A DNA stretch of 64,000 bases, from NCBI GenBank assembly GCA_021768705.1, contig JAETUG010000002.1, positions 1 to 64,000 on the forward strand, in the 5' to 3' direction. Numbering within the stretch: position 1 is the first letter of the stretch; each line of letters starts with the position of its first letter. The translations under genes and the position numbers were made by a program. The notes under the pieces are model-generated. The model had not been told where the DNA came from. It did not search any database and was given only the letters and a program-made list of their open reading frames with translations. Positions 12,467 to 54,016 of this stretch are shown here, one piece after another. The DNA is from Bacillota bacterium. Its GTDB lineage: Bacteria > Bacillota > Clostridia > Lachnospirales > Anaerotignaceae.

Positions 12467-12629
12467 CTTTGACAAAACCGATTGCTTCGCTTCTCCGAAG
12501 CTCCCGCAATCGCCCTATTCGTAACTCCGAGCATACTCTCCGTTACTCATTGTGGACACTCGCCAAATCGCTTCCTTCCTGTATGCTATGCATACAAAGG
12601 AAGCCACTTGGCTCCTTGTTTCGTCAAAG
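12467..12629 (-). repeat. Structured intergenic element, family G copy 1 (thiX-thiY)
   Basis: On the minus strand CTTTGACGAAAC and GTTTTGTCAAAG close a ~163-base region holding several hairpins (GGAGCC/GGCTTCC, GTATGC/GCATAC, GATTGC/GCAATC). It contains ATGAGTA-hairpin-TACGAATAGG, also present in the element at 47575-47693. It begins within the last codons of thiX and ends 31 bases before thiY. Confidence 0.55.
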
Positions 12630-14873: not shown

Positions 14874-14885
14874 TGATATTACTTT

Positions 14886-14982
14886 CATCGTTTCGCTTCC
14901 CTCCGTTGGTACTAACCACATCAAGTTCAAAGGGTTGGAAAAAATCCTCTCAGCTGCTTTTGGCAGCACCCCCAGCTTTTCA
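14886..14982 (-). promoter_or_regulatory. TPP riboswitch (THI element)
   Basis: The minus strand carries the conserved blocks GGGGGTGC, CTGAGAGGA, ACCCTTTGAACTTGATGTGG and TTAGTACCAACG with a closing GGGAAGC, in the order and spacing of the TPP aptamer. It controls tenA-thiZ-thiX-thiY by transcription termination. Confidence 0.95.
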
Positions 14983-15006
14983 AACTTATTTAGTTTGTTC
15001 TCTTTG

Positions 15007-16453: not shown

Positions 16454-16546
16454 CCGAAAGCCCCGATGCCCATCAGGGTAGAACTGGTAAAAGCAAATTT
16501 CGACGAAGGGTGTCGGACAATCGACACCCTCGAAAGGAGGGCATTT

Positions 16547-17299
16547 ATGGACTATAATACCAAACTCATCAACCTGGCACTGGATGCAGGGGAAATTATG
16601 CTCAAAAACGGTGCGGAGACTTTCCGTGTGCAGGATACCATGAAGCGGATCCTTTCCACCACCGGAAGGGAAAAGATCGAAGCCACGGCCCTTTCCACTG
16701 CCCTCATCGTGACCCTGCCCCGAGAAGAAAAGGGGCCCCTTTCCATGATGCGAGGCGTCCATACCCGTACGGTCAATTTTGAAAAGGTCTGCGAAGTAAA
16801 CGATATCTCCCGTGCTTTTGTTTCCGGAAAAATTACGCTGGAAGAAGCCATTGCAAAGCTGAACGCCATACGCCAAGCCCTCTTCTACCCTATGCCCCTG
16901 CGTATCTTCGCTTATGGGATCATTTCCGGCGGCTGCGCCCTTCTCAGTGGGGAATCGGCTATCGATGGCATTCTTTCCTTTTTTATCGGGATGCTGCTGG
17001 GCTGCTTCGTTTTCTGGCTGGGGACAAAAAAAGTGCCCTATTTCTTCGAGCCTTTTCTGGGCGGAATGCTGGCGGCCTATTGCGCCTGCTGGATGGCACC
17101 GCTGTTCCCTTCATCCCATATCGATACCATCGTCATCGGCAGTATCATGCCCCTTTTGCCGGGGGTGACCTTCTCCAAGTCCATGCGTGATCTATTGGAG
17201 GGGAATCTCATCAGCGGCAGCACAAAGGCAGTAGAAGCACTGGTCATCGCCTGCTCTCTTGCAGGGGGCGTGGGTCTGACATTGGCATATTTTATGTGA
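16547..17299 (+). CDS. Threonine/serine exporter, ThrE N-terminal (YjjP-like) subunit, copy 2
   Basis: 250 residues, started at the ATG with AAAGGAGG before it. It begins MDYNTKLINLALDAGEIMLKNGAETFRVQDT and is a clear paralogue of the gene at 15211, which it matches over its whole length. A hairpin (GGGTGTCG/CGACACCC, 16508-16529) sits just before its ribosome binding site. The order YjjP-YjjB-YjjP suggests two alternative partners for one small subunit. Confidence 0.85.
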   Translation: MDYNTKLINLALDAGEIMLKNGAETFRVQDTMKRILSTTGREKIEATALSTALIVTLPREEKGPLSMMRGVHTRTVNFEKVCEVNDISRAFVSGKITLEEAIAKLNAIRQALFYPMPLRIFAYGIISGGCALLSGESAIDGILSFFIGMLLGCFVFWLGTKKVPYFFEPFLGGMLAAYCACWMAPLFPSSHIDTIVIGSIMPLLPGVTFSKSMRDLLEGNLISGSTKAVEALVIACSLAGGVGLTLAYFM

Positions 17300-17307
17300 T
17301 TGAAGAC

Positions 17308-17362
17308 TTCGGGGACTTTGTCCCCAATCCCCTACCAGGGCATCATGCCCTGGACCTGATAC
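17308..17362 (+). repeat. Multi-hairpin element, family H copy E
   Basis: Hairpin TCGGGGAC-TTT-GTCCCC, linker TCCCCTA, hairpin CCAGGGCA-TCA-TGCCCTGG, linker ACCTGATAC, then a third hairpin that here is the terminator at 17363-17394. Same plan as the copies at 20302, 38774, 43125 and 52631. Confidence 0.6.
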
Positions 17363-17394
17363 AAAAAAGTGAAGGCATACGCCTTCACTTTTTT
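17363..17394. terminator. Bidirectional terminator between convergent genes
   Basis: AAAAAAGTGAAGGC and GCCTTCACTTTTTT are perfect 14-base arms around ATAC. It serves the exporter operon on the plus strand and the zinc-ribbon gene on the minus strand. Confidence 0.85.
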
Positions 17395-17651: not shown

Positions 17652-18248
17652 TTATAATTCCCGTCTGCCCTCCAAGGCACGAGAAAGGGTGATCTCATCC
17701 ACATATTCCAGATCGCCGCCCACAGGCACGCCATTGGCGATGCGGGTCACCTTCACGTCCAGAGGTTTCAGCAGCTTTGCAATATACATCGCCGTTGCTT
17801 CCCCCTCCACGTTAGGGTTTGTGGCAAGGATGACCTCCTCCACCGAACCGTCAATACGGCTGATGAGTTCACGGATACGGATATCCTGAGGGCCCACACC
17901 CGTCATAGGGGAAATGGCACCATGCAGCACATGATAGACACCGTGGAATTCCTTGGTTCTCTCGTAAGCCGCCATATCTCTGGGGTCTTCCACCACCATG
18001 ATGGTCTTATGATCCCGCTTCACATTGGCACAGACAGGGCAAACCTCTTCCTCCGTCAGGTTGCAGCAAACAGAGCAGTATTTTACCTGATCCTTTGCCT
18101 TCAGAATAGCTTCGGAAAGGGCCGCCACCTTTTCTCTTGGCATATGGATGATATGGAAAGCCAGCCGCTGGGCGGATTTGCCGCCGATCCCTGGCAAAGA
18201 TGCCAGTTCCTCAATCAGCCTTGTGACCGGGTTGCCGTAATAATTCAT
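17652..18248 (-). CDS. recR: Recombination mediator protein RecR
   Basis: 198 residues, the normal length. Helix-hairpin-helix ([18 protein letters not shown]), the four-Cys zinc finger ([16 protein letters not shown]) around 57-72, and the Toprim domain ([25 protein letters not shown]). It loads RecA at gaps together with RecF/RecO. The order dnaX-ybaB-recR is a standard bacterial cluster. Confidence 0.97.
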
Positions 18249-18680: not shown

Positions 18681-20285
18681 TTACTCTTCTACATCCGCTT
18701 CGGGAAAATATTGTCCCAGCAGGCTTGCAAATTCCGCATCCTCTTCTGCTGTGGAAGCCTCCTCCTGCTTTCCATAGGCGGCTTCGTACCACTTATCGTA
18801 TTCTTCCTTGGTCGTGGTGCGGAGCTCAAAGCTCTTGCCTGTCTCTCTTTCCAGAACCGCGGCGATCTTATCAATGCCCCGTTCCACCATATCCGCCAAT
18901 GCAGGATATTCGCAGATAAGATACAGGAATTCATCCTCTTTAAAGCCTACTTCTACCTGCCCCAACATACTTTTCAGCACCACATCATCCACATCGTTGC
19001 GGAGCAAAGGCCATTGCTCTTTCACCTGTTTTCTGTCCTCAGGTAGTGCAGGTGGTTTCCGTTTAGGTTTCGGGGCTTCTTTTGGTTTAGCGTCGCTGCT
19101 TTGCGCCGCCTGTATCGCCACAGGCACGCCCTCGGCAACCTTCCGTTCCAATTCGCCCAGCCTTGCCGCCAATGTGGTCAGGTCTTTCTCTGTCCAAGGG
19201 GCGCAGAGCTTCATCAGCTCCACCTCCAGCAAAATACGTTCGTTGGGTGCCCATTTCAATTCGCTCTGCAGATCAGAAAATTTCCCGATCAGATAAATGA
19301 TCTCTTCGGGAGAAAGGATTTTTGCCGCCGCCTGCAGCCGTTCCCCATCCTCCTGAGAAAGATCCAGTATCTGTTTCACATCAGGGATGGTTGCCGCAAT
19401 CAGCAGATTTCTGAGATGCTGCAGCATTTCTGTGACGAACTGCTTCACATCTCTGCCGGAAAGCATCATATCCTCCACTAAAGTCATGGCTTTTTTCGCA
19501 TTTTTCTGCGCCAAGGCTTCTGTCATTTCAAAGAAAATGGTCTGGTCTACGGCGCCCATGATATCCAGCACCTTTTCCAGTGTCACTTCCTCGCCGCTGA
19601 AAAAGGCAAGGCACTGGTCTAAGATACTCAGGGAATCACGCATGGAGCCATCCCCCAGATGGGCCACATAGCGCACCGCTTCAGGGGTCACCTTCTGCCC
19701 TTCTTCCTGCAGATAGCCCATGAGGGTCTCCGCAATGGTTTCCGTGGTGATACGGCGGAAATCGAACCGCTGCACACGGGAAAGAATGGTGGCAGGAACC
19801 TTCTGGGGGTCTGTGGTTGCCAAAATGAAGATGACATGGGCAGGGGGTTCTTCCAGGGTTTTCAGCAGTGCATTAAAGGCACTATTGGAAAGCATATGCA
19901 CTTCGTCGATGATATAGACCTTGAACCGCCCTTGGGTAGGGGGGTATTTCACTTCTTCCCGAATCTCACGGATATTATCTACGCTATTGTTGGAGGCAGC
20001 GTCGATTTCGATCACGTTGACGCTTCTGCCTGCCAAAATATCCTGACATACGTCGCACTGATTACAAGGCTCCCCTTCTTCTGTGGGGTGGAGGCAGTTG
20101 ATGGCTCTGGCAAAGATTTTTGCCGTAGAGGTCTTACCGGTGCCCCGTGTGCCGCAAAACAGATAGGCATGGGACACCCGACCTGTTTTCATCTGGTTTT
20201 TTAATGTCCGAACAATATGCTCCTGCCCGATAACGCCATCAAAGGTCTGGGGGCGGAATTTCCGATACAATGCCGTATAAGCCAT
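18681..20285 (-). CDS. dnaX: DNA polymerase III subunit gamma/tau
   Basis: 534 residues. Walker A GTRGTGKTS at ~45-53, zinc-binding Cys residues around CNQCDVC, Walker B IDEVHML, arginine finger region ILSRVQRFDF, then clamp-loader domain III and a short C-terminal tau region ending in an acidic tail. Start has GAAAGGAG upstream. No slippery sequence for a gamma frameshift is obvious. It drives ybaB and recR downstream. Confidence 0.96.
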   Translation of the reverse strand: MAYTALYRKFRPQTFDGVIGQEHIVRTLKNQMKTGRVSHAYLFCGTRGTGKTSTAKIFARAINCLHPTEEGEPCNQCDVCQDILAGRSVNVIEIDAASNNSVDNIREIREEVKYPPTQGRFKVYIIDEVHMLSNSAFNALLKTLEEPPAHVIFILATTDPQKVPATILSRVQRFDFRRITTETIAETLMGYLQEEGQKVTPEAVRYVAHLGDGSMRDSLSILDQCLAFFSGEEVTLEKVLDIMGAVDQTIFFEMTEALAQKNAKKAMTLVEDMMLSGRDVKQFVTEMLQHLRNLLIAATIPDVKQILDLSQEDGERLQAAAKILSPEEIIYLIGKFSDLQSELKWAPNERILLEVELMKLCAPWTEKDLTTLAARLGELERKVAEGVPVAIQAAQSSDAKPKEAPKPKRKPPALPEDRKQVKEQWPLLRNDVDDVVLKSMLGQVEVGFKEDEFLYLICEYPALADMVERGIDKIAAVLERETGKSFELRTTTKEEYDKWYEAAYGKQEEASTAEEDAEFASLLGQYFPEADVEE

Positions 20286-20301: not shown

Positions 20302-20376
20302 TCCGGGACGCTGTCCCGGACCCTGCGAGGGGGTCACCCCCTCGACCCGATGCAGCAAGCAGCACTGCTGCTTGCA
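20302..20376 (+). repeat. Multi-hairpin element, family H copy C
   Basis: Hairpin TCCGGGAC-GCT-GTCCCGGA, linker CCCTGC, hairpin GAGGGG-GTCA-CCCCCTC, linker GACCCGATGC, then hairpin GCAAGCAG/CTGCTTGC. It lies between the SRP RNA terminator and the dnaX start. Confidence 0.6.
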
Positions 20377-20471: not shown

Positions 20472-20736
20472 AAGGTCCGCACGCCCGCTGTTGCCATATC
20501 GCCCCATGCGTTACCTTCTTCCACGGCTCCATCCGAGCACCCTTACCACACACACAAGTTGACTGCTTAGTGCTGCTGCCTTCCGACCCTGACACGGTTC
20601 ACAGGCTCATGTTGCGTAAGACCCGAACTTCAACACCGCTTCCGAAGGGCAGGCCATCAAGCCATACGTCGAAAGCGAGCATCACCCTCACTATAGCGGA
20701 TTGTGAGTACAGGGCACCGCTACCGCCCCGGCTAGT
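20472..20736 (-). ncRNA. ffs: Signal recognition particle RNA, large bacterial type
   Basis: The minus strand contains the SRP core GTCAGGGTCGGAAGGCAGCAG followed by CACTAAGCAG, and the 5' Alu-type start GGGCGGTAGCGGTGCCCTGTA with AATCCGCTATAG, as in clostridial SRP RNAs. Mature ends are estimated to within about 10 bases. With Ffh it targets nascent membrane proteins to FtsY. The promoter lies about 100 bases upstream, which implies a longer precursor that is trimmed. Confidence 0.93.
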
Positions 20737-20830
20737 ACGGAGATATTACTCAGTTAAAATCAGGATTTTAACTGGTTTTTACAGATATATGCAAGCCCTT
20801 CGGTGATTCTACCGAAAGTATAGCTATATT

Positions 20831-26714: not shown

Positions 26715-26738
26715 GGAATAAGATTATATATTATTTGG

Positions 26739-26832
26739 TTTTCTAGGGTTCCGCAGAAAGATTCTGGTCTGAGACCAAGAGAAAACCCACGGTATCTACC
26801 GTGTCACGGAAGGATAAAAGCCTGGGAGATAT
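26739..26832 (+). promoter_or_regulatory. Guanidine-I riboswitch (ykkC motif)
   Basis: Conserved ykkC blocks: CTAGGGTTCCG, GGTCTGAGACC, ACCCACGG, CACGGAAGGATAAAAGCCTGGGAGA. It sits directly before an SMR transporter gene, its usual target. Guanidine binding is expected to prevent the following terminator. Confidence 0.93.
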
Positions 26833-35429: not shown

Positions 35430-35488
35430 AAACAAGCAAAAGAAAGGCTGATATTTTCCGCATACGCAAAAAACACCAAACTTCGCTT

Positions 35489-35597
35489 TTCTTCTTCCAT
35501 CCAGACTATACTGTCGGTTTTGGAATCGCACCAAATCCTACGCCGAAACGCTCGCGGACTTTACCGCCGATCGGGAATTTCACCCTGCCCTGAAGAA
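35489..35597 (-). promoter_or_regulatory. FMN riboswitch (RFN element)
   Basis: Minus strand shows CTTCAGGGCAGGGTGAAATTC, CCGATCGGCGGTAAAGTCCGC, GATTTGGTGCGATTCC, CGACAGTATAGTCTGGATG and GAAGAAG in the standard order. Confidence 0.95.
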
Positions 35598-35675
35598 AAA
35601 TCTTATGGTTATGTGCCATAGGAATCAAAACCTTTCGATTTTTGAAAGTTCCATGGCAATTGATTTTATGCTTTC

Positions 35676-38773: not shown

Positions 38774-38914
38774 TTGAGGGCGTTGCCCTCAAACTCCCAC
38801 CAAGGGAGTTACTCCCTTGGAACCCGATACGAAAATCAAATTTCTGTGAAATTTGATTTTCAAATGGGGGTCTGGGGTATCATACTCCAGCGGGGAATTG
38901 GGGCGGTGCCCCAA
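38774..38914 (+). repeat. Multi-hairpin element, family H copy A (fullest copy)
   Basis: Five hairpins in ~140 bases: TTGAGGGC/GCCCTCAA; CCAAGGGA/TCCCTTGG; GAAAATCAAATTT with its complement; CTGGGGT/ATACTCCAG; TTGGGGC/GCCCCAA. Linkers are ACTCCCA, AACCCGATAC, AAATGGGGGT and CGGGGAA. The linkers themselves can pair (CTCCC with GGGGA, ACCC with GGGT), so the whole element can fold as one unit. Lies between the MBL-hydrolase gene and tex. Confidence 0.65.
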
Positions 38915-38919
38915 GGTCT

Positions 38920-39963
38920 TTAACGATACTTATTCCAAAGCTCGTCGAGCTTCGCCTTGCATTCTTCGGCGGAAAGGGTCAGCCGATAGGCTCTGTGCTC
39001 GCCCTCATCCTTTCGCACCGCCATGCCCCGCACCAGCAGATAATCCAAGTGCGCCATGGTCTCCCCAACGGCAAACCACCGCTGAGACAAGGGGAACTCC
39101 ACCCAAGTCTTGCCCCGCATGGACCATTTCAGATGGGCGGCAACCTCCGTTGCATGGCTGTCGGGGTGGCTTGCCAGCGCATCCACCGTCTCCTTTAGCC
39201 GCACCAAATGATGCTCGATGATCTGGCTGATGCGTTCATACACATCCATATCATTTTTCCGATGGGCAGGGAAAGCCGTTTCCATCTCAAAGCTGCGTAT
39301 CTTCACCAGGCTGTCCAGATAATCCCCTAAGGAATCGGCGGCATCCTTCCAATGGGTGATATTTGGGGTGATATCGAAAAGGATATGATCTGCTGTGAAC
39401 ATGATCTTCTTTTTCGGGCAATAGAGACACATCTGCCCGGGGGTATGTCCAGGAACGGAAACGCAGACAAATTCCCATTTTCCGACTTTCACCCTGTCCC
39501 CGTCCGCCACATGCTCCGCTTCAAAATATCGGGTCGGCTCCAATCCACGGGCAGGGTTGGAAATCCGCAGTTCCGCCAGTTGTTCTCTGGTAAAGCCCTC
39601 GTGATAGAAAAGCTCATCCGTCTCTTTCCACCGTTCCCCCTTCATGTGTTCCCACAGAATTTGGTGATCCTTCTCGCCGATGTAAATTTTCCCCGGCTTG
39701 TCCTCCATAATGGCGGGGGCCAGTCCCGTATGGTCGGAATGCAGATGGGTCAGGAAGAGATTGGTCTTGTTCCAGTCGGCGTTCAATTCTTCCAGCCCTG
39801 CCAGCAAAGCCTCTTTACATTCGGGGCGGTTGAAGCCTGTATCGATGATAAGAGTCTCTCCTCCATCCTGAACGATATAGCAGTTCAGGTTTCGCAGGGG
39901 GTTATCAGGCAGGGGTACATCTATCTGAAAAATACTTGGTTCTTCATAAATTTTTTGAAGCAT
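38920..39963 (-). CDS. Metallo-beta-lactamase-fold hydrolase
   Basis: 347 residues; ATG at 39963. Metal site THLHSDHTG (~80-88), further His in VSVPGHTPGQMCLY and ADHILFDITP. The C-terminal ~110 residues (LVRLKETVDALASH..., WFAVGETMAHLDYLLVRGMAV) match the winged-helix extension of the YqgX/LACTB2-like group. Likely hydrolyses a thioester or nucleotide-type substrate; not predictable further. It may be co-transcribed with tex downstream. Confidence 0.85.
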   Translation of the reverse strand: MLQKIYEEPSIFQIDVPLPDNPLRNLNCYIVQDGGETLIIDTGFNRPECKEALLAGLEELNADWNKTNLFLTHLHSDHTGLAPAIMEDKPGKIYIGEKDHQILWEHMKGERWKETDELFYHEGFTREQLAELRISNPARGLEPTRYFEAEHVADGDRVKVGKWEFVCVSVPGHTPGQMCLYCPKKKIMFTADHILFDITPNITHWKDAADSLGDYLDSLVKIRSFEMETAFPAHRKNDMDVYERISQIIEHHLVRLKETVDALASHPDSHATEVAAHLKWSMRGKTWVEFPLSQRWFAVGETMAHLDYLLVRGMAVRKDEGEHRAYRLTLSAEECKAKLDELWNKYR

Positions 39964-43124: not shown

Positions 43125-43232
43125 GCAGAAACGTTAGTTTCTGCAAAATGGGGGTCGAAGGGAATCATTCCCCTCGCAGGGTGTATGCTGCCAGCACAAA
43201 GTACTGGTCAGGTGAATAGGACAGTGTCCCAC
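43125..43232 (+). repeat. Multi-hairpin element, family H copy D (right half only)
   Basis: Hairpin GCAGAAAC-GTTA-GTTTCTGC, linker AAAATGGGGGTC, hairpin GAAGGGA-ATCA-TTCCCCTC, linker GCAGGG, then a degraded hairpin and GGACAGTGTCC. It matches the right half of the copy at 38774. Confidence 0.55.
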
Positions 43233-43239
43233 CAAACTC

Positions 43240-44226
43240 TTACAGCAGATTCTTTCTCAACTCTTCTGCGGACAAGGGAGACAGATATGCAGGAGCCACA
43301 TCGAATACGGTCTTTGCCCCAGTCATGCCTTCCTTCGCCATTTTATAAGCCGCTCTTGCGTAAGCCACGATGACGCTGGAGGTAAATTCGGGGTTGGAGC
43401 CCAGTGTCAGCTTATATTCGATCATCTGCTTCGTATCCACACCTGTTTTGCCTGTTCTGATGACAAAACCGCCATGGGGGATACCCTTGTGGTCACGATC
43501 CAGTTCTTCCTGAGAGATGAAATGCACCGTTGTATCATAATCAGCGAAGTAGTTGGGCATGGTCTTGATCTCGTTTTCGATTCTAGCCAGATCTGCCCCT
43601 TCTTCCGCCACTACATAGCATTCTCTTGTGTGTTTTTCTCTGGTTGTCAGTTCAGGATTCTCCCCGGCTCTGACTCTTTCCAGGGCAGCCTCTACGGGTA
43701 CTGTGTACTGCTTGCCGTCCTTTACGCCGTCAATTCTTCTGATGGCATCGGAATGCCCCTGGCTGACCCCTCTGCCCCAGAAGGTATAATCCTTGCCTTC
43801 CGGCAGGATGCAGTTGCCCAGCAATCTCTGCATGCTGAACATACCGGGGTCCCAGCCAACGGAAATAAATGCCACATGACCGCCTTCTTTTGCGCTAGCG
43901 TCTACATTGGCAAAATGTTCGGGAATTTTTGCGTGGGTATCAAAGCTGTCTACGATATTGAAATATTTTGCATATTCGGGGCTCTGCACGGGCAGATCTG
44001 TGGCACTGCCACCGCAAAGGATCATTACATCGATGTCATCTTTTTTGCTCACAGCATCTTTAATGTTATATACAGGCACTTCAGGGCTCTGTGTTTTCAG
44101 GCTTTTGGGGTCTCTTCTTGTGAAGAAAGCCGCCAATTCCATATCGGGGTTCTGTCTTACTGCCAGTTCTACACCCCTGCCCAGGTTGCCGTAGCCTAAA
44201 ATACCGATTCTGATTTTATCTGTCAT
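43240..44226 (-). CDS. ddh: Meso-diaminopimelate D-dehydrogenase
   Basis: 328 residues; the second ATG has the better-spaced AAGGG. NADP-binding IRIGILGYGNLGRGVELAV, FFTRRDP, and substrate region FISVGWDPGMFSMQRLLG with WGRGVSQGHSDAIRRI and HGGFVIRTGKTG. Makes meso-DAP in one step from tetrahydrodipicolinate, for lysine and peptidoglycan. The gene stands alone. Confidence 0.95.
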   Translation of the reverse strand: MTDKIRIGILGYGNLGRGVELAVRQNPDMELAAFFTRRDPKSLKTQSPEVPVYNIKDAVSKKDDIDVMILCGGSATDLPVQSPEYAKYFNIVDSFDTHAKIPEHFANVDASAKEGGHVAFISVGWDPGMFSMQRLLGNCILPEGKDYTFWGRGVSQGHSDAIRRIDGVKDGKQYTVPVEAALERVRAGENPELTTREKHTRECYVVAEEGADLARIENEIKTMPNYFADYDTTVHFISQEELDRDHKGIPHGGFVIRTGKTGVDTKQMIEYKLTLGSNPEFTSSVIVAYARAAYKMAKEGMTGAKTVFDVAPAYLSPLSAEELRKNLL

Positions 44227-44381
44227 TTGTACCATCCCTTTTCTTTAGAATTTATTTTGAGTATATCACAGGAATTGGAATAAGGAAATATTTCCGTTTA
44301 AAAAAGCCATCAATAGAATTGATTTTCCTTATAAGAAAAGGGGATTGGGTCGTTCCCATTTCCCCCTTTCTCCTCAAAAGA

Positions 44382-52630: not shown

Positions 52631-52735
52631 TTGAGGGCTCCGCCCTCAAACTCCCATAAGGGGAATCATTCCCCTTAACCCCGATACCCCGCACCAAATG
52701 TACATCTGGTGCGGAAATATGGGGATGCAGGGGTG
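52631..52735 (+). repeat. Multi-hairpin element, family H copy B
   Basis: Hairpin TTGAGGGC-TCC-GCCCTCAA, linker ACTCCCAT, hairpin AAGGGGA-ATCA-TTCCCCTT, linker AACCCCGATAC, hairpin CCGCACCA/TGGTGCGG, then a shortened right half AAATATGGGG...GGGGT. Lies between the desulfidase-like gene and tRNA-Phe. Confidence 0.6.
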
Positions 52736-52741
52736 TAGGTC

Positions 52742-54016
52742 TTATTTCCCCTGCTGCATAACGTTGATAATCGTTGCATCCATGGGTGCCATACCCTCAT
52801 CGGAAATTCTGCCCAGATTTTTCTCCGTCTGTTCCGCAGAAGACCCGATCACGCCAAAGTTATGGGGGATCGCCACCCCTTCCATGGCCAGCATTGCGGA
52901 AAGGTAAGCGGAATATACCCCAGCAGAGGCTTTCAGCGCGCAGCCTGTGCTGCCGCCGTCACAGATCATCCCTGTCAGGTTCGCCGCCATATGATCCATT
53001 GCCGCAGAAACCTCTTTGGCACCGCCGCCCATCAGATACACAATGCCAGATGCCGCACCGCTGCCACCGCCCAATACGCAGCCGCAGAGGGCAGACAATC
53101 TGCCTGTATAATGTTTGCTGTAAATTGTAATAAGACCGCTCAGTGCCACGGCACGGATGATCTCTTCCTCGGATTTTCCCGTATATCTGCCATAGGAAAC
53201 CACAGGCATAGAGCAAAGAATCCCATGGGAACCGCTGCCCACAATGCTCATTGCCGCAAAGGGCAGACCTGCCAGTCTGGCGTCCATGGCAGAACAGGTC
53301 AGCTTCTGGGCGGCATAGATCATATCATTGCCCCCCAGCGCACCTTTGTTCTGGAAGGCAGATAATGTTTTCCAAATGCTCAGACCAACACCCTTTTCCC
53401 CTTCTGCGGAAAGCCGACAGTTCATTTCGATCATGCCTTTGATGCAGTCCAGTTCTTCAATGGGTACGTTTTTCGCATAGTCCACCATATCTGCCACGGT
53501 CACGGCTTCAAAATCGAACACGTTCCCCTTGGCTGCTGCCTCTGCCTTTTCCCCTTCAAAAAGCACTTCGTTATCCTTAGCTACATAAACGATATTGGCA
53601 TGGAACTCTTCGATGCGGCAAAGCCCAACACCCTTTGTGGTGGTCACCTCCGCTTCAATGAAGATATTTTCCTTTGTTTCATCCACATGAATCTCAATGG
53701 GGATGGACAACGCCTTTGCCTGAGCCACATGGTCTGCCGTGATATTTTTCAGTACCTCCAGCCCCAGCTGCCAATCGCCCCCTAGGGCACCCAAAGCCGC
53801 CGCCATTTCGCAGCCCAATTCTTCCGTGCCGGGAATGGCGCAGGAAAAGGCGTTTTTATACATACCGCCATTCATCGTCATTTCGATATGGAGCAGGCTG
53901 CCGCCAACGGCATCATAGGCCCTTGCCGCCGCCAGGGCGATGGCCCCTACTTCCGTTACGCCTAAGGCAGGTTTGATCTCATTTTTCAATAAAGCTGTAT
54001 AATCAAATGTTGTCAT
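52742..54016 (-). CDS. L-cysteine desulfidase / UPF0597 family enzyme
   Basis: 424 residues. Serine dehydratase alpha-chain-like fold; conserved Cys in DGGSTGCALKASAGV near the end, SIVGSGSHGILCSMPVV and CGCVLGGGSGAASGIVYLMGGG in the middle, consistent with the oxygen-sensitive 4Fe-4S enzymes that split L-cysteine to pyruvate, ammonia and sulfide. Divergent from a sodium-coupled amino-acid transporter, which fits amino-acid catabolism. Confidence 0.88.
   Translation of the reverse strand: MTTFDYTALLKNEIKPALGVTEVGAIALAAARAYDAVGGSLLHIEMTMNGGMYKNAFSCAIPGTEELGCEMAAALGALGGDWQLGLEVLKNITADHVAQAKALSIPIEIHVDETKENIFIEAEVTTTKGVGLCRIEEFHANIVYVAKDNEVLFEGEKAEAAAKGNVFDFEAVTVADMVDYAKNVPIEELDCIKGMIEMNCRLSAEGEKGVGLSIWKTLSAFQNKGALGGNDMIYAAQKLTCSAMDARLAGLPFAAMSIVGSGSHGILCSMPVVSYGRYTGKSEEEIIRAVALSGLITIYSKHYTGRLSALCGCVLGGGSGAASGIVYLMGGGAKEVSAAMDHMAANLTGMICDGGSTGCALKASAGVYSAYLSAMLAMEGVAIPHNFGVIGSSAEQTEKNLGRISDEGMAPMDATIINVMQQGK

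Follow-up and report, generated by a model that had tools for sequence, protein, structure and literature searches.

BIMEs of enterobacteria are intergenic mosaic combinations of palindromic units that occur in high copy number, and MITEs of the Correia, ERIC and RUP type are small, non-autonomous, palindromic elements with inverted ends. The features of REP elements (PMC3733652) and the background on MITEs (PMC3049150) have been described. The BOX elements of Streptococcus pneumoniae are modular composites of variable size with predicted stem-loops and are MITE-like (PMC3049150). Moreover, mitochondria contain double-hairpin or repetitive hairpin-forming elements (RHE), which consist of several hairpins, are apparently mobile and have no known function (PMC2800124).

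Here, a repeat family of a gut bacterium of the Anaerotignaceae is analysed, of which no description was found in the literature (open-licence papers). It resembles BIMEs and REP elements in being an intergenic mosaic of palindromic units in high copy number, with 158 combinations in 169 arms, it resembles BOX in being a modular composite of variable size with stem-loops, and it resembles the Correia/ERIC/RUP-type MITEs in being small, non-autonomous and palindromic with inverted ends. The family is real and more extensive than the five copies listed in an earlier note on this DNA. It is probably an interspersed element of the BIME/BOX kind, palindromic, mosaic and non-autonomous, which acts at the level of DNA. 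Most copies lie in the gap that separates a stop codon from the following ribosome-binding site.

Five copies in the window

The window, i.e., the whole stretch of 64,000 nucleotides that was analysed, is part of contig C38 of a genome (G000) of 1.86 Mb with a completeness of 85%. All five copies are present where they had been placed, and they share the proposed plan of hairpins and linkers with variable yet paired stems, the fuller plan being two inverted arms with the outer termini AAGACC/GGTCTT. Each arm starts with (T)AAGACC, and its hairpin 1 is joined by a YCCC linker to hairpin 2, after which comes ACCCGATAC in A-type and ACCCCCATTT in B-type arms. A covariance model of one arm was trained on ten copies that had been located by pattern. 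The copy at 38774 is an A-B element with the following features:

38774 to 38792, + strand: hairpin 1 (TTGAGGGC-GTT-GCCCTCAA), the outer one in the A-type arm (sequence; model match 38774-38830, 75.9 bits)
38793 to 38799, + strand: linker ACTCCCA (sequence; YCCC conserved in alignments A2 and A3)
38800 to 38820, + strand: hairpin 2 (CCAAGGGAG-TTA-CTCCCTTGG) (sequence; arm model)
38821 to 38830, + strand: linker AACCCGATAC, A-type (sequence; arm model)
38831 to 38861, + strand: central hairpin 3 (local folding)
38862 to 38871, + strand: linker AAATGGGGGT of the B-type arm, the opposite strand reading ACCCCCATTT (sequence patterns and alignments)
38872 to 38890, - strand: hairpin 4, B-type arm (opposite-strand model match 38867-38915, 25.2 bits)
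38898 to 38914, - strand: hairpin 5, corresponding to hairpin 1 in the B-type arm, with GGTCTT adjoining at 38915-38920 (sequence, model match and terminus pattern)

The other four copies are composed as follows:

17308 to 17394, + strand: A-type arm (17309-17362) and an intrinsic-terminator-like hairpin (17363-17394) (model match, 70 bits)
20302 to 20376, + strand: A-type arm (20302-20353) and hairpin 3 (arm model)
43125 to 43239, - strand: degenerate right half, a worn B half made of hairpin 3, AAAATGGGGGT, hairpin 4 and remnants (empty site in G003; E=0.25)
52631 to 52735, + strand: A-type arm (52631-52687), hairpin 3 and a truncated right side (model match, 69.1 bits)

The copy at 17308 lies between the convergent genes 16466-17299 (+) and 17652-18248 (-), and the copy at 20302 is flanked by the SRP RNA gene and the gene 18681-20285 (-). 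The insertion point of the copy at 43125-43232 is directly 3' of the stop codon of the gene 43240-44235 (-), and the truncated right side of the copy at 52631 adjoins a gene end at 52742. At none of the five copies did Rfam give a match at gathering score; the sub-threshold matches look like chance, among them a weak one to Clostridiales-2 with 22.1 bits against 58.6 on a single hairpin. Rfam matches above gathering score elsewhere in the window are a Clostridiales-1 RNA (12470-12626), a TPP riboswitch (14881-14983), the large SRP RNA (20477-20740), a guanidine-I riboswitch (26732-26830) and an FMN riboswitch (35485-35601).

Four of the five copies match the arm model with E-values of 1e-14 to 1e-15 (arms at 17309, 20302, 38774 and 52631), values which are circular because these copies were among the ten training sequences. 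Support that is independent of the training set comes from the roughly 50 arms genome-wide, the 83 arms in G003 and the 388 of 391 genomes of the class that are without them. The fifth copy at 43125 matches the model weakly (E=0.25); it is a real insertion despite this score because G003 has an empty site there.

Arms, linkers and centres

Among the two-arm cases in codirectional contexts the arms face inward in 54 of 57, and the element is therefore an inverted pair of arms. A-B elements have a single central hairpin 3 common to both arms, and in A-A elements the centre is longer and contains two hairpins, the centre length ranging from 13 to 180 bp across 60 parsed paired-arm elements. The elements have terminal inverted repeats and no coding capacity, as is typical for MITEs, and a non-exhaustive inspection of the match spacing revealed no gene-bearing pair of facing arms that would represent an autonomous copy.

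It had been proposed that the linkers pair with each other across the element (CTCCC:GGGGA, ACCC:GGGT). This was not supported by a shuffle test, in which the two arms of the same element were compared with arms of different elements in 500 shuffles: the linkers are less complementary within an element than between elements, with 500 of 500 shuffles for linker 1 and 496 of 500 for linker 2 at least as high as the value within elements, so that the pairing lacks covariation support. The apparent pairing arises because C-rich linkers sit in both arms in inverted order.

Some elements carry further sequence. A module of about 60 bp (GCACCGCCAAGATNAAGGCGGCGGC...GTCTTCCCGCAGGGAAGAT) resides in the hairpin-4 loop of L015, L016 and L089 and at G000:C38:66362, 69906, 75263 and 76839; G000 and G003 together have 14 copies, nearly all inside or adjoining elements, and G004 and G008 have none. 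L126 (G001:C47:10000-11356) is a direct tandem of three element copies at a spacing of about 229 bp, joined by AAGACCTTAAGACC.

Distribution and the mobiliser

The earlier note had suggested a model search of the genome and of related genomes as a check, and this search found many more copies: about 50 arms in G000 (57 places at E<=1, 51 at E<0.01) and 83 arm matches in G003 at E<=0.1. The model found arms in every one of the nine genomes of the genus and, within the family, in 23 of 58 genomes, representing 6 of 17 sampled genera. Elsewhere in the order, scattered genomes of further genera and families have high arm counts (G023, G044, G052). In the class sample, with 14 candidates scored per genome, 3 of 391 genomes match the arm model at E<=1e-5 and the other 388 have no arm at this threshold. 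The element density differs between the contigs of G000, C38 and C44 being rich and the 214-kb contig C16 having none among the model matches.

When 84,980 species were scanned for the exact pattern, 27 matches were obtained, scattered over unrelated phyla and probably mostly due to chance; two matches each fell in Anaerotignum sp. RGIG2943 and the Clostridia MAG SRR15732368_bin.3. The sole exact-pattern match in viral contigs, L127, is without arm hairpins, lies in an apparently coding stretch and looks like chance.

The idea that copy-rich genomes encode a RAYT-like transposase found no support. Y1_Tnp (PF01797) has no match in G000, G005-G008, G033, G044 and G052, all of which carry 13 to 44 arm matches, whereas G018 has 37 Y1 matches and not a single arm, and the presence of Y1_Tnp shows no relation to the arm copy number. 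It is thus highly improbable that these are REP/REPIN-type elements mobilised by RAYT (Y1 tyrosine transposase), even though the elements are palindromic, intergenic and of high copy number as such a reading predicts. Y1 may have been lost from the carriers or been missed in incomplete assemblies. In the transposase search, which covered the Y1 family, no mobilising enzyme was found.

Mobility and module exchange

The view of the family as interspersed, modular and made of whole and half copies holds, and the 169 arms of the palindrome search contain 87 hairpin-1 and 100 hairpin-2 sequences. The suspected mobile-element character is supported by relatives with empty sites at 38774 (G006) and 43125 (G003). 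The 38774 site holds one lone hairpin in G008 and, in G003, a full element whose core is reversed. At the 52631 site, G003 has a full element, again with a reversed core, G006 a right half and G008 a lone 36-bp palindrome. At the 20302 site, an arm is present in four species (the own genome, G003, G007 and G008) with stems that differ and are paired in each. Furthermore, the centre with hairpin 3 of L016 is the reverse complement of the centre of L078 with one difference.

Comparison of 11 orthologous loci of G000 and G003 revealed three elements that are nearly identical (94.9-100%), three that are partially swapped and have only a part in common, and five that are replaced, with an aligned identity of 53-60% between well-matched flanks. 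At the sequence level, these comparisons show mobility, i.e., presence, absence and same-site replacement, as well as module exchange. Repeated insertion at a preferred site could be another cause of the same-site replacement. In a comparison of two empty sites by eye, no unambiguous target-site duplication was seen. Lone palindromes also occur where relatives have full elements, e.g., in L118 and L107, namely CAAAGACCTTGGGGGGAATCCCCCAAGGTCTTTG (G008) and a hybrid hairpin at the 38774 site, which are possibly deletion remnants.

Some orthologous elements are better conserved than their flanks (L014/L079 with 98.6% against 92.3%; L027/L102 with 100% against 98.1%). This counts against the mobile-element reading preferred here, as a purely parasitic element would not need conservation above its flanks (L014/L079).

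Stem covariation and loops

Covariation was counted on alignments fitted to the arm model, and an alignment-free palindrome search recovers the same kind of hairpins. In 104 distinct arms, 96.7% of the stem cells are paired, 351 cells are changed on both sides and all 16 pairs vary on both sides; a slide by one column reduces the covariation score from 0.586 to 0.10. In a wider set, read in model orientation, 3315 Watson-Crick cells stand against 11 G·T, 40 A·C and 31 other cells, and the stems change from Watson-Crick to Watson-Crick pairs with few one-sided intermediates. The strong covariation that had been claimed is thus present, but the conclusion drawn from it, selection on structure, does not follow from covariation alone, because hairpins are swapped as units and because template switching between inverted-repeat arms is reported to homogenise the arms and to invert spacers (PMC8604942).

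The loops behave differently. Read in arm orientation, the loop of hairpin 1 is rich in pyrimidines in every one of the 169 arms, a pattern that the arm model could favour, although a three-base loop contributes only a few bits; the hairpin-2 loops are chiefly TCA, TAA or TGA. Since the two arms occupy opposite strands, the hairpin-1 pattern is found on no single RNA strand.

These data bear on a purely mutational origin of the perfect stems, according to which template switching between the hairpin sides homogenises them, nothing selects or mobilises the elements and spread occurs by occasional non-allelic recombination. The two-sided changes with hardly any one-sided intermediates fit this explanation, as do the core inversions at two sites (38774 and 52631 in G003) and the inverted hairpin-3 centre of L016/L078, which are signatures of template switching (PMC8604942). 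However, the hairpin-1 loops are not inverted at random, because their polarity is the same in every arm, and the conservation of loops and linkers exceeds what homogenisation explains. A purely mutational origin is rather doubtful.

Genomic context and the question of DNA or RNA

Genes were called with a simple codon-usage caller, and 125 of 135 element places lie outside called genes. Genes had been called on either side of these 135 places; 103 lie between codirectional, 25 between convergent and 7 between divergent genes, showing that divergent spacers are avoided (25 convergent against 7 divergent, p=0.002). More than half of the codirectional places start no more than 16 bp after the upstream stop codon, and many of them end right before the next ribosome-binding site. 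The orientation relative to transcription is neutral, the arm on the stop side being A in 11 and B in 10 cases and single arms being sense in 18 and antisense in 28 cases. The sense-strand mismatches in codirectional contexts comprise 13 G·U and 16 A·C.

This placement just 3' of stop codons and just 5' of ribosome-binding sites within operons would suit a functional RNA element, such as a processing or stability site of operon mRNAs or an attenuator, selected at each site, and so would the copies conserved above their flanks and the 20302 arm that is kept in four species, where its stems differ yet are paired. Yet the RNA role that had been considered earlier is not supported: on the sense strand, G·U mismatches do not exceed A·C mismatches (13:16), and orientation is neutral. 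Moreover, there is no Rfam family, and whole elements are replaced and lost at orthologous sites. The evidence points to a DNA-level over an RNA-level element, and selection as RNA at each site is unlikely.

The avoidance of divergent spacers would also be expected of transcription terminators or 3'-end stabilisers, some of them domesticated, and several half copies do adjoin terminator-like hairpins (17363-17394; L018, L030, L037, L038). However, the arm hairpins themselves are without a T run 3' of them and many copies lie within operons, 15-45 bp upstream of the next start, making such a role quite unlikely.

Discussion

For the preferred reading, a DNA-level element of the BIME/BOX kind, hairpins would form while the DNA is single-stranded and copies would spread through such hairpins, which might be moved by a recombinase or by template switching during replication or repair. 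The stems might stay perfect because only the hairpin shape, the loop polarity and the linkers matter; alternatively, template switching between the hairpin sides might keep repairing the stem. Template switching accounts for the paired changes and the flips, not for the fixed loop polarity. Recognition of a folded hairpin by a recombinase would explain why stems are free while loops and linkers are fixed, and the two processes may act jointly. More specifically, and tentatively, the ends might be recognised as folded single-stranded hairpins via loop polarity and linkers, whatever the stem sequence, by a recombinase other than Y1/RAYT, so that the element would stay active when hairpins are swapped and rewritten.

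The family offers a natural system to ask whether selection on folded DNA or template-switch mutation keeps palindromes perfect, as orthologous sites in close species capture insertion, loss, inversion and module exchange. It also calls for caution, as strong covariation by itself is no demonstration of a functional RNA.

Compared with the known systems, two features of REP/REPIN elements that were looked for are lacking, i.e., the RAYT gene and the GTAG/CGTC tag. REP elements carry GTAG or CGTC tags at the hairpin foot, whereas here AAGACC forms the outer foot, with YCCC and ACCC linkers; furthermore, in contrast to REP/BIME there is no link to RAYT, and stem sequences are free while loops and linkers are fixed. 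BOX modules are conserved in sequence, whereas the stems vary here and no IS with matching ends was identified. A difference from the Correia/ERIC/RUP-type MITEs is that here two ends from the same element resemble each other less than ends from different elements do; the two empty sites compared gave no clear target-site duplication. In the RHE of sponges, which belong to another compartment and are likened here by description, stems are conserved and loops vary, the opposite of the present pattern. Interspersed repeats of bacteria are in most cases recognised by a conserved sequence, whereas this family of the BIME/BOX kind shows an unusual pattern, combining fixed loops and linkers with free but perfectly paired stems.
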